Source: an archaeon (lineage in GTDB: Archaea; EX4484-52; WAPT01). Taken from it: a DNA stretch of 54,041 nucleotides. The notes beneath the pieces are model-generated. The model saw nothing but the letters and a program-made list of their open reading frames with translations, was not told the DNA's origin and did no database searches. Location of the stretch: contig JAPDKB010000005.1 of NCBI GenBank assembly GCA_029258795.1, positions 1 to 54,041 of the forward strand. Direction: 5' to 3'. The position numbers were made by a program, and so were the translations under genes. Shown one piece after another: positions 37,533 to 50,043 of the stretch; the stretch's first letter is position 1; each line of letters starts with the position of its first letter.

Positions 37533-37556
37533 GATGATTTTATCGAACTTTAACAA

Positions 37557-38643
37557 TAAAAAGTTGGCTGATGTGTTGTCTTAACTCTCACATTTAGGAT
37601 ATTACTGTTTCTTTTATTTGGGTCAGCTTGTCGTTTTTTGTTCTATTCTTTCATTTGAATACATTTCTCATTTTTGGCCCACCTTAGTGGAGTCATGGCT
37701 TACTTTGTGTTATGATCCCATATTCTTTTCCAGCATGCGTTTTCTCTCACAAACAGCGCAATTTTTGGAATTATTTCGAGGAACTATTTCCCATTTATTA
37801 CATTTAACTCTCATATTCTGACAAAATTTTCACAAATTTTACTGAAATTTATATTTTCAAGAAATCAAAATATATTGAGATATTGATATGATATGCTATC
37901 AGGATTTAAAAATTTTGGCATGCAAAAAATCAGCATACATAAAAAAAGTTATATAATATATTTTTTCAAGTTTTTATTTTTTATTATATTTTTAACACAT
38001 GATTTATTTAAAAATATTTTTTTGAAATTAATTTATTTGATTTATTTTTTGTAGAATATAATTCAATAATATGGAAGAATTTCCCATTTTCCTGAGAGTT
38101 TCGGACGGATTTTTGATCCCCTTTATTAGCCCTAAAAAGTACCATACTTCCAAAATTATGTTATTTGAGTGCCGGGAACCTATATTATGAGCAAAAAATC
38201 ATAGAAGATTTTCATATTCTCTAAAAAAGTGCATGAGGTGTTGTGTGTAGTTGGGACTAATTTCCCATTTATTCTCCAAAATGTTCTGAAAAACCCTCAC
38301 ACTTTTTTATTATATTTTGGCCTTTTACCTATATTACGGGAGACATAATCGACCTAGCTTCACCATTCCCGGAGTTCTATTCTTTTCTAAAAAAGTATAC
38401 AATATACAACAATACTATATAATATATCAAAAATCGATATACGCAAAACAAGTTCGCATAAGGTTCATTATGCGAACTGAAGGGTATGGATGGAAAGTGT
38501 AGAGAAAAGAATATTTTGTATAATATAAAATAAAAAATATTTTCCTAAAAATATGAAATGAAAGTGGGAAGAATTGACAGGAAATATCGTGAATTCTCTT
38601 CCAAATTTTACAATTTTATATATTTTGAAATCTAATAAATATC
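37557..38643. other. 1.1-kb AT-rich gene-free region with degenerate repeats
   Basis: No plausible coding frame. The stretch is strikingly A/T-rich compared with the flanking genes, with long runs such as those around 37975-38050. Short motifs recur: TTTCCCATTT at about 37788, 38080 and 38261; CTAAAAA(A)GT at 38132, 38221 and 38387; ACCTATATTA at 38178 and 38327. Their order suggests two or more decayed copies of a unit of roughly 150-180 bp. The 28-bp dif-like palindrome lies near the right end. The layout fits a terminus/dif neighbourhood or a relic insertion zone; an origin cannot be excluded, but I see no clear origin boxes. Confidence 0.6.
38451..38478. other. Candidate dif / Xer recombination site (11 + 6 + 11 palindrome)
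   Basis: Left arm AGTTCGCATAA (38451-38461), 6-bp spacer GGTTCA (38462-38467), right arm TTATGCGAACT (38468-38478). The arms are perfect 11-bp inverted repeats, exactly the architecture of a Xer recombinase site. From memory of the E. coli site (arms GGTGCGCATAA and TTATGTTAAAT, 6-bp spacer), 9 of 11 and 8 of 11 positions agree. Pyrococcus dif likewise has inner ends ATAA/TTAT. It lies in non-coding DNA, and a XerA gene is 8.8 kb away. The role as the chromosomal dif is inferred. Confidence 0.75.
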
Positions 38644-39069
38644 ATGTTTGATGATATTTTCGGTTCTCCAAAAAAATCCAGAAAAAAGAAAAATCCGTTT
38701 GATTTTGATTTAAGTTTATTTCCTTCTCAAGAAGAAAAGAAAAATAAACGAGGATACATCTATAAGGATTACAGAAATAAGTTATGGGAAAAACAAAAAG
38801 GGAAATGTGCTAGATGTAAGAAGAAATTAGACCCTCATAATTATCACATAGATCATAAGAAACCCGTCGCACTGGGAGGCAAAACAACATTATCCAATCT
38901 TCAACTTCTATGTCCCCTATGCCATATGAAGAAAACTGCAGAGGATAGACGAAAAATATCTCAAAATAAGAAACGACAGAAGAAATCTAGCGCAAAAGAC
39001 CCATTTACCGTTGATCTTTTCGGCTCTTCTTCAAGATCTAGAAAGAAAGATCCTTTTAGTTTGTGGTAA
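38644..39069 (+). CDS. HNH endonuclease
   Basis: 141 residues. The central domain (about 40-110) is an HNH nuclease with two Cys pairs: KCARCKKKLDPHNYHIDHKK, then LSNLQLLCPLCHMKK. The catalytic His lies in YHIDHKKP. The termini are unusual: the N-terminal DIFGSPKKSRKKKNPF and the C-terminal DLFGSSSRSRKKDPFSL are nearly the same motif, one on each side of the nuclease. The gene follows the dif-like site within 170 bases and converges with the EVE-like nuclease, 2 bases apart at their 3' ends. An A/T-rich TATA-like ATATATTTTG lies at about 38616-38626. Confidence 0.85.
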   Translation: MFDDIFGSPKKSRKKKNPFDFDLSLFPSQEEKKNKRGYIYKDYRNKLWEKQKGKCARCKKKLDPHNYHIDHKKPVALGGKTTLSNLQLLCPLCHMKKTAEDRRKISQNKKRQKKSSAKDPFTVDLFGSSSRSRKKDPFSLW

Positions 39070-39071
39070 GT

Positions 39072-40049
39072 CTATAATGTATGTTCCTGAATGTTCAACT
39101 TTTTGCCTAACTCTTCAAAACTCATGACGTCAGTTTTCCAATCTATATCATATCTTAATGCTACCATTTCCTTCCCAAGCTTCTCAAGTGCGCGCTTCGT
39201 GAAATCTCGTGCAATCAAAACTCCTTTTAAACACTCATTACCTAGCTCAGAAACATAATACTTTAGTTGTTTGAAATCATTTTCTGAAGCTTTTCCAAGT
39301 TTGACTTCTATCACAATTTTCCTTGAAACTCCTATAGGTACTGCTTCTTTGATCAATATATCTACATGTCCTTCTGGCAGTGCTTTTTCACTTAAGACTT
39401 CAAGGTTGTTTATATCCAATTCCTTTATTCCACAAACATCCATAAGATTTTCCAAATTAGAATTTTTTGATAAGTATTTCTTTATTAGTGCTTGAAGAAT
39501 AACTTCCTTAAATGAAAATACTTCAGGTGGATTTTCATTTTCTCTCCTTAAACAGAATTTTGGTTTAAAAGTTTCGTATTTCGGCATTTCCAAAGTCTCT
39601 ACATTTTCTTTAATGGTCCTACCTACTTGAGAAACATATTGAAGCGTGGTTTGATCTGCTTGAAAATGTGTTTTCCTATAACCTCCACGCAAAAGCAAAT
39701 TTTCAGCTACATAAGCAAATTCGTTTCTTATGAGGAGCTCTTCAAACTGCCTTACTGGTTCAAGATACAATCTAAAAGGAAACCAGTATGTTCTATTTGA
39801 TGGTTTAAATGTTATCGGTTTCCATGGTGGGAGATCTTTAGCGTCTCGTATTGCTTCTTTTTTCTTAACCCTATAAAGATTATGCGCTCTTGCGCCATAA
39901 AGAAATGAAACAAAATCCCCTTCGTTTATTTCTACATATGCCCATGCGCCATTAATACTATTTGTGAACCCTGCCAGAGCGAATTTTTTACATAGTTCTA
40001 GGTTTTCTCTATTTGACACTGATATTAAAAAATAGTTTGGCTTGTTCAT
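39072..40049 (-). CDS. EVE-like (PUA-fold) domain fused to NucS-like PD-(D/E)XK nuclease
   Basis: 325 residues. The N-terminal 120 residues look like an EVE/YTH-type PUA fold: YFLISVSNRENLELCKKF, INEGDFVSFLYG, YRVKKKEA and FPFRLYLEPV. The C-terminal domain has PD-(D/E)XK features of the NucS/DUF91 kind: GHVDILIKEA with the metal-binding Asp, KIVIEVKLGK with the E-x-K, and the following QLKYYVSEL. EVE domains read modified bases in known modification-dependent restriction enzymes, so a single-protein type IV-like restriction nuclease is the likely role. The domain calls come from motif shape, not a search. Confidence 0.65.
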   Translation of the reverse strand: MNKPNYFLISVSNRENLELCKKFALAGFTNSINGAWAYVEINEGDFVSFLYGARAHNLYRVKKKEAIRDAKDLPPWKPITFKPSNRTYWFPFRLYLEPVRQFEELLIRNEFAYVAENLLLRGGYRKTHFQADQTTLQYVSQVGRTIKENVETLEMPKYETFKPKFCLRRENENPPEVFSFKEVILQALIKKYLSKNSNLENLMDVCGIKELDINNLEVLSEKALPEGHVDILIKEAVPIGVSRKIVIEVKLGKASENDFKQLKYYVSELGNECLKGVLIARDFTKRALEKLGKEMVALRYDIDWKTDVMSFEELGKKLNIQEHTL

Positions 40050-47318: not shown

Positions 47319-47329
47319 TTATGCGAACT
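47319..47329. promoter_or_regulatory. dif-arm copy covering the xerA start codon
   Basis: TTATGCGAACT, identical to the right arm of the palindrome at 38451-38478 and matching over CATTATGCGAACT. The ATG of xerA is inside it. No left arm lies at the 6-bp distance. If XerA recognises this arm, it could bind its own start region. Coincidence with coding constraint remains possible. Confidence 0.4.
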
Positions 47330-48160
47330 TCGAAATGGATTGAGATGCTTGAAGCTGAGCTGAAACTTCGCGGCTTTACTGAAAACACGATCTCAAGTTA
47401 CACAATACTCGTGAGAAATTTTCTGGAAGACATGAACAAAGACCCAAAAAGGATTAGTGAGGGAGATGTCAAAGCTTACATATCTAAAAAGATGGTGGAT
47501 GAGGGGTTAAGCCCAAGAAGTGTGGTATGCATTATAGCTGCATTACGTTTCTTTTTTGAGGAGGTGGTGGGTAGGGATGATGTGGTGAAGATAAAGCCGC
47601 CGAAGCAGGATAAGAAGCTTCCAACTGTGCTGACAAAGGAGGAGGTGCGCTTGTTGATAGATGCTGCTGAAAATTTGAAGCACAGAGCGCTTGTCGAGCT
47701 CCTGTATTCTTCTGGTTTGAGAATAAGCGAATGTCTTAACCTGAGAGTTAAGGACTTGGACTTGGATAGGATGGTGGGCGTAGTAAGAGCAGGTAAAGGG
47801 AGAAAAGACAGGATGTTCATACTGTCCAGAAGGGCAGCTGAAGATGTGAGGCAGCTCATCCTGATGGAAAATAAAGGGAGTGAGGACTTCATCTTCACCG
47901 GGAAAAATAAAAGAAAGAGGATGACTTCTAGGGCAGCGCAAAAAATAATATCGAAACTTGCGGAAAAAGCAGGAATAACGAAAAATGTAACGCCCCATGT
48001 ATTGAGGCACAGCTTTGCCACACATTTGCTGGAAGGAGGAGTTGACATAAGAAAGATTCAGGAGCTGCTCGGTCATGCGAATCTTAACACCACGCAGATA
48101 TACACCAAAGTTTCTATGGAAGAGCTCAGGAAAATTAGAAGTCCGCTGGACGAAATTTGA
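47321..48160 (+). CDS. xerA: Tyrosine recombinase XerA (integrase family)
   Basis: 279 residues. An N-terminal SAM-like DNA-binding domain (LKLRGFTENTISSYTILVRN) is followed by the catalytic domain with all residues present. Arg I is in YSSGLRISECLNL, the beta-hairpin Lys in GKGRKDRMF, H-x-x-R in PHVLRHSFATHLL, the second His in LGHANLNTTQIY and nucleophile Tyr in TTQIYTKVS. Length and lack of an arm-binding domain fit chromosomal XerA rather than a viral integrase. It should resolve chromosome dimers at a dif site; the 38451 palindrome is the candidate. The stop is 2 bases from the convergent wHTH gene. Confidence 0.93.
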   Translation: MRTSKWIEMLEAELKLRGFTENTISSYTILVRNFLEDMNKDPKRISEGDVKAYISKKMVDEGLSPRSVVCIIAALRFFFEEVVGRDDVVKIKPPKQDKKLPTVLTKEEVRLLIDAAENLKHRALVELLYSSGLRISECLNLRVKDLDLDRMVGVVRAGKGRKDRMFILSRRAAEDVRQLILMENKGSEDFIFTGKNKRKRMTSRAAQKIISKLAEKAGITKNVTPHVLRHSFATHLLEGGVDIRKIQELLGHANLNTTQIYTKVSMEELRKIRSPLDEI

Positions 48161-49197: not shown

Positions 49198-50043
49198 ATG
49201 GTTTTCGTAATCAAGATGAACGGCGAGAAGGCAGAGTTCAACGAGGAGAAGATAATTCACACCGCAATGAGGGCAGGAGCATCGAGAGAGCTTGCGGAAG
49301 AGGTTGCCAAAGCCGTCAGAAGCAGGATTTATAATGGAATCACCACCCGGGAAATCCTAAAGATGGTTAGAGAAGAGCTGAAAAAGCACAGCCCATACTT
49401 GGCAAGGGTGTACACCCTCAAAGATGCGATTTCTCTTCTTAACCCCGATATCTATGAGTTTGAATATTATGTGGCATCCCTTTTCAGGTTGAAGGGCTAC
49501 AATGTAAAGAGAAGTCCCGAGCCCAAGCCGCGGGGAAGGTGTGTCGAGCACGAGATAGACGTGCTTGCAGAAAAGGATGGGAAAATAATCGTGGTGGAGT
49601 GCAAACACCATCACAAGGAAAGAACCTTTACTGGCTTGGATGTGGTTATGAGGCAGCATGCAAGGCTCATAGATTTAAAGGATGGCTGGAGGGATGGAAA
49701 GAAAAATTCGATAGACGTTCAGGAAGCGTGGGTTGCAACCAACACCAAGTTTTCAGAACACGCCATAAAGTATGCGAGGTGCAGAGGTATAAAGCTGCTC
49801 AGCTGGCGTTATCCAGAGGGCAATAGCCTCGCGGATTGGGTGAACAGCATGAAAGCTTATCCCCTCACCATAGTGAACCTGCCATTAAAATACAGAGAAG
49901 CGCTGCTTCCTTACGGTGTGTGGAACACTGTTGATTTTATGAATGCGGATGACAAAATTTTGAGGAAATCCGGGCTAACAGACGTTCAGATAAATGCGTA
50001 CAAGAGACGAATAAAGACCATGAAGGAGCTCATGGGAGGTTGA
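49198..50043 (+). CDS. ATP-cone domain fused to Mrr-like PD-(D/E)XK nuclease
   Basis: 281 residues in three parts. Residues 1-85 are an ATP-cone (VIKMNGEKAEFNEEKIIHTA then GITTREILKMVREELKKHS), the nucleotide-sensing module of ribonucleotide reductases and NrdR. Residues about 90-205 are a restriction-endonuclease-like fold: FEYYVASLFRLKGYNVKRSP, EHEIDVLAEKDG with the catalytic Asp, and IIVVECKHHHKE with E-C-K. The C-terminal 70 residues are helical and may include a helix-hairpin-helix-like DNA contact (LRKSGLTDVQINAYKRR). The likely role is a nucleotide-regulated DNA nuclease. It is overlapped or followed directly by the membrane protein gene at 50049. Confidence 0.82.
   Translation: MVFVIKMNGEKAEFNEEKIIHTAMRAGASRELAEEVAKAVRSRIYNGITTREILKMVREELKKHSPYLARVYTLKDAISLLNPDIYEFEYYVASLFRLKGYNVKRSPEPKPRGRCVEHEIDVLAEKDGKIIVVECKHHHKERTFTGLDVVMRQHARLIDLKDGWRDGKKNSIDVQEAWVATNTKFSEHAIKYARCRGIKLLSWRYPEGNSLADWVNSMKAYPLTIVNLPLKYREALLPYGVWNTVDFMNADDKILRKSGLTDVQINAYKRRIKTMKELMGG

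Follow-up and report, generated by a model that had tools for sequence, protein, structure and literature searches.

The archaeal XerA/dif system is known from Thermococcales such as Pyrococcus abyssi (Cortez et al. 2010, PMC2958812; reviewed in PMC5357621 and PMC8371274). The arms of Thermococcales dif sites are near-symmetric, the outer dif sequences are the more variable, specificity-setting part, and the P. abyssi XerA needs no partner proteins to bind and recombine its dif (PMC2958812). In Sulfolobales, dif sites lie near xerA and the flank is conserved mainly on one side (PMC2958812). Single recombinases encoded near their sites are also found in the XerS/difSL and XerH/difH systems (PMC5357621). 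In a literature search that covered sources other than subscription journals, we found no publication joining XerA or dif with DPANN archaea. Here, we analyzed a candidate dif site in a 54,041-nucleotide stretch of archaeal DNA, which we refer to as the window. The site and the gap in which it lies have the following features.

38451-38461, plus strand: left 11-bp arm of the candidate dif site, AGTTCGCATAA
38462-38467, plus strand: central 6-bp spacer, GGTTCA, the putative strand exchange region
38468-38478, plus strand: right 11-bp arm, TTATGCGAACT, the exact reverse complement of the left arm
37557-38643, no strand: AT-rich intergenic gap of 1.1 kb that holds the site

A previous reading based on sequence only (the sequence-only reading) had claimed exact inverted-repeat arms with a 6-bp spacer at 38451-38478, and the letters confirm this: the 28-base site, AGTTCGCATAA-GGTTCA-TTATGCGAACT, is a perfect 11-6-11 inverted repeat. 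With up to 3 mismatches allowed, the window contains no second match (0 matches in 100 shuffles), and the site is single-copy in its own draft genome (G000; 1,168,407 bases in 23 contigs, 96% complete). Using a first-order Markov model, 0.05 perfect 11-6-11 palindromes are expected by chance per 54 kb, which amounts to approximately 1 per genome. Taken alone, such a palindrome is therefore weak evidence that is not significant genome-wide, and the reading of the site is settled by comparison with relatives and not by the palindrome itself.

Additional weight comes from the resemblance to E. coli dif, for which we used the sequence as printed in PMC3025954 and PMC3325230. The two systems have in common the 11-6-11 layout and the inner arms CGCATAA/TTATG. 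We reproduced the reported arm matches of 9/11 and 8/11; at 17 of 22 arm positions, the site is the top-scoring one in the window on both strands, while the runner-up sites match at 15 of 22. The site of a relative, G022, even has an unbroken run of 18 bases, spacer TGTATA included, in common with E. coli dif (CGCATAATGTATATTATG). The systems differ in that E. coli has two recombinases, asymmetric arms, and control by FtsK, whereas the window has one recombinase and symmetric arms; the pair of paralogous recombinases that characterizes bacterial XerCD/dif was not found in the draft, which encodes one PF00589 protein. In its anatomy, the locus is closer to the Thermococcales system, with one XerA-family recombinase, one intergenic 28-bp 11-6-11 site, and conserved AT-rich flanks, although the archaeal lineage is a different one and this comparison covers the anatomy of the sites. 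With XerS/difSL and XerH/difH, the window shares a single recombinase near its site, while those systems differ in spacer length or arms, and their proteins are longer.

For comparison with relatives, we used a set of 34 genomes of the phylum. The pooled consensus of the sites, KNCGYATAA-N6-TTATRCGNM (28 bits), occurs exactly and only once in 12 of the 34 genomes, across five families (G000, G001, G015-G017, G019, G021-G023, G030, G031, and G033); because the consensus was partly derived from these same sites, the count of 12 describes the set. The chance expectation is about 0.005 per genome, or ~0.15 over all 34, and a reversed control pattern gave only scattered matches at up to 1 mismatch. 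A 13th genome, G032, contains a near match with a spacer identical to that of its genus mate G033. Independent support for these candidate sites is provided by the exact cores in family f6, which were found using the window arms alone, and by the linkage to xer. The sequence-only reading would have been refuted by absence from relatives or by multiple copies in them; wherever we found the site, it is single-copy.

While the arms are retained, the spacers change. The sister species G001 carries TGTTCGCATAA-CGAATA-TTATGCGAACT, which, in the same orientation, differs from the window site in one arm base and three of six spacer bases. Spacers in relatives include TATTCG (G001, in the window orientation), TGGTGC, TATACA, and TAGTTG. 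In a half-site logo of the 13 genomes, CGYATAA toward the spacer is near-invariant, and the outer four bases are variable. Arms that differ between family types are GTTCGCATAA, GTCGCATAA, and TTGCGTATAA, and the families have the following types.

Family f4, adjoining xer: TTGCGTATAA-type arms
Family f5: GTCGCATAA arms
Family f6: TTCGCATAA arms
Family f7: the site AGTACGTATAA-TAGTTG-TTATACGTACT

We did not find the consensus site in G014 and G003, which carry related recombinases, or in the genomes behind four XerA relatives from outside the set (L003, L004, L006, and L007). These consensus-negative genomes may be drafts in which the site is missing, or diverged arms may be in use. Looser 11-6-11 matches (in G012, G013, G020, G022 C23, G023 C216, G028, and others) were dropped as coding or asymmetric.

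The gene for the presumed recombinase of the site is part of the same window.

47321-48160, plus strand: xerA, encoding a tyrosine recombinase of 279 aa that is predicted to use this site

As the sequence-only reading had it, a XerA gene is 8.8 kb away; its start at 47321 is 8.84 kb from the site. The protein is the sole one in the draft to match PF00589 and scores 256 bits against the NCBIfam model for archaeal XerA (NF040815; cut-off, 220), while it misses the XerC and XerD equivalog cut-offs and falls far under that of the XerS model. Among solved structures, its best matches are the XerA proteins of P. abyssi (4a8e; E value, 5e-56) and T. acidophilum (5hxy), and it retains the catalytic R, K, HxxR, H (LGH), and Tyr. 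The argument that symmetric arms fit a single recombinase holds as well, since the draft has one PF00589 protein and near-symmetric arms are reported for Thermococcales dif. Among the relatives of the window XerA, 53% are labeled Aenigmatarchaeota and 42% Pacearchaeota; based on these labels, the host is probably a DPANN archaeon.

Site and recombinase gene are linked in relatives, too. In seven genomes (G015, G016, G017, G019, G021, G022, and G023), which represent the two families f4 and f5, the site is located 66-95 bp upstream of the xer match. In G001, xer and the site are 6.9 kb apart in an arrangement as in the window, and the intervening and outer genes are mostly conserved. G002 has neither the site nor xerA because its contigs end in that neighborhood: one ends 453 bp beyond DUF373, and the other begins 592 bp before the ortholog of gene 49198-50043, which is downstream of xerA in the window. 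The locus thus resembles that of Sulfolobales in having a recombinase-linked site and one-sided flank conservation, but the Sulfolobales site is next to xerA, whereas 8.8 kb separate the two in the window and tight linkage is confined to f4 and f5. When 29 Xer proteins were placed in a tree, the accessory ones formed a separate group (support, 91/87), and the accessory genes of G013, G017 (G017b), and G021 (G021b) are preceded by a different palindrome, AATTATACGGA-ATAAAT-TCCGTATAATT, so that, in the cases seen, each type of recombinase goes with its own type of site. The loci with this accessory pair are listed here.

L032, G013 C136:9-36: accessory Xer gene and palindrome
L034, G021 C85: accessory Xer gene and palindrome
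L044, G017 C1: accessory Xer gene and palindrome

Based on the single copy, the conservation of the arms while the spacer drifts, the linkage to xer, and an intact and sole XerA, we are highly confident that the palindrome represents the chromosomal dif site of this archaeon, predicted to serve a single XerA. By analogy to characterized archaeal and bacterial systems, from which we infer the binding, the points of cleavage, and the resolution of dimers with its timing, two XerA monomers would bind the two symmetric 11-bp arms, one per arm. Once homologous recombination had fused circular sister chromosomes into a dimer, the two copies of the site would be brought together, the XerA tyrosine would cut, and strands would be exchanged at the edges of the 6-bp spacer, restoring two monomers. 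The site is very probably a clear further example of the known archaeal XerA/dif system, in a lineage for which we found no published dif. This would extend single-recombinase XerA/dif to small-genome, apparently uncultured archaea (probably DPANN), and the dif site would serve as a fixed chromosomal landmark in a lineage with unmapped replication termini. The alignment of sites from 13 genomes, most of them with their recombinases, offers a basis for testing arm specificity. A more speculative and rather unlikely idea is that Xer/dif forms a compact module in the phylum, with the site in the promoter region of the gene for its own recombinase as in f4 and f5; XerA at dif could then repress its own gene as well as resolve dimers, and the genus of the window would be derived, with the pair moved 7-9 kb apart.

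We considered other explanations for the palindrome. Because it is palindromic, intergenic, and immediately upstream of xer in f4 and f5, it could be an operator for a transcription factor, e.g., a self-regulatory one for xer or one for neighboring genes. We consider this very improbable given that the site is outside the xer promoter in G000, G001, G030, G031, and G033, that the genes next to it vary between families, and that more than one copy of an operator is usually expected; the exact 11-6-11 geometry with dif-like inner arms also argues against it. That the palindrome is a mere hairpin in RNA, a terminator, or a product of chance we view as extremely unlikely. About one perfect 11-6-11 palindrome is indeed expected per genome, but the exact consensus is present once per genome in 12 genomes. 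Similarly, base identity is conserved across families where an RNA hairpin would show compensatory pairs, and the region has neither a T-run nor an Rfam match.

The palindrome could also be an attachment site belonging to a mobile element that integrated here and has Xer as its integrase. The gap and the region at 37-43 kb are AT-rich, and the HNH gene beside the site is missing from this position in G001, both of which would fit an insertion. However, a single genomic copy leaves no att pair, and both the site and xerA (73% identity) are common to G001, in a conserved chromosomal synteny that includes the ribosomal L10 gene. In a scan of viral contigs with the exact core, we obtained 30 matches with unrelated flanks and spacers; their number is about what chance predicts for 16 fixed bases, and we rejected them as candidates. 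Together, these observations make an attachment site highly unlikely.

With respect to its surroundings, the dif candidate is non-coding, as had been claimed, and falls between a DUF373 gene (start at 37556, minus strand) and an HNH gene (start at 38644). The sites in G015 and G033 are likewise without a long frame across them; a stop-to-stop frame spans the site in G016 and G017, which counts against the dif reading, and none does in G015. The conserved flanks extend over the following interval.

38417-38587, no strand: conserved non-coding dif flanks, 82% identical over 171 nt to G001 C15

This conservation lies mainly on the right side of the site (GGATGGAAAGTG..., GAAAGTGGGAAGAATTGACAG), and the flanks may contain accessory sites. 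We note that 82% identity to G001 over 38417-38587 exceeds the expectation for non-coding DNA. A further non-coding block at 37741-37892, on the stretch from DUF373 to dif, has 83% identity to G002 and is for the most part kept in G001, and the gap carries three GGRAnnAWTTYCCATTT-like repeats at 37780, 38073, and 38254. Rfam gave no match in the dif region, including the 37741-37892 block and the repeats, and a tRNA search detected none near the site.

We determined GC and tetranucleotide skews around the sites on seven contigs of fragmented drafts. The largest 12-kb GC-skew step in the window is at 37.1 kb, near the site, with a mixed left side; the skew in G001 mirrors the right-hand side of that in the window, and the skews in G017 and G022 do not change sign at their sites. 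Both cdc6 genes lie on contigs other than that of the site, which is compatible with, and no proof of, a terminus. In a test for a replication origin, no motifs were common to the AT-rich gap and the two cdc6 loci.

In both sister species, the assemblies are interrupted within this AT-rich gap by dif (ends of C15 and C23 in G001 and of C14 and C15 in G002), which may reflect variability in the population or a difficulty in assembling the region. The HNH endonuclease gene adjoining dif (38644-39069) is replaced in G001 by a different small open frame, and based on this difference, the spot beside dif is a possible insertion hot spot. The next gene, 39072-40049, encodes a protein of 325 aa whose sole domain is a NucS-like nuclease domain at the C terminus; its score falls well short of the cut-off for the NucS equivalog, and a gene with this domain is present beside dif in both G000 and G001.
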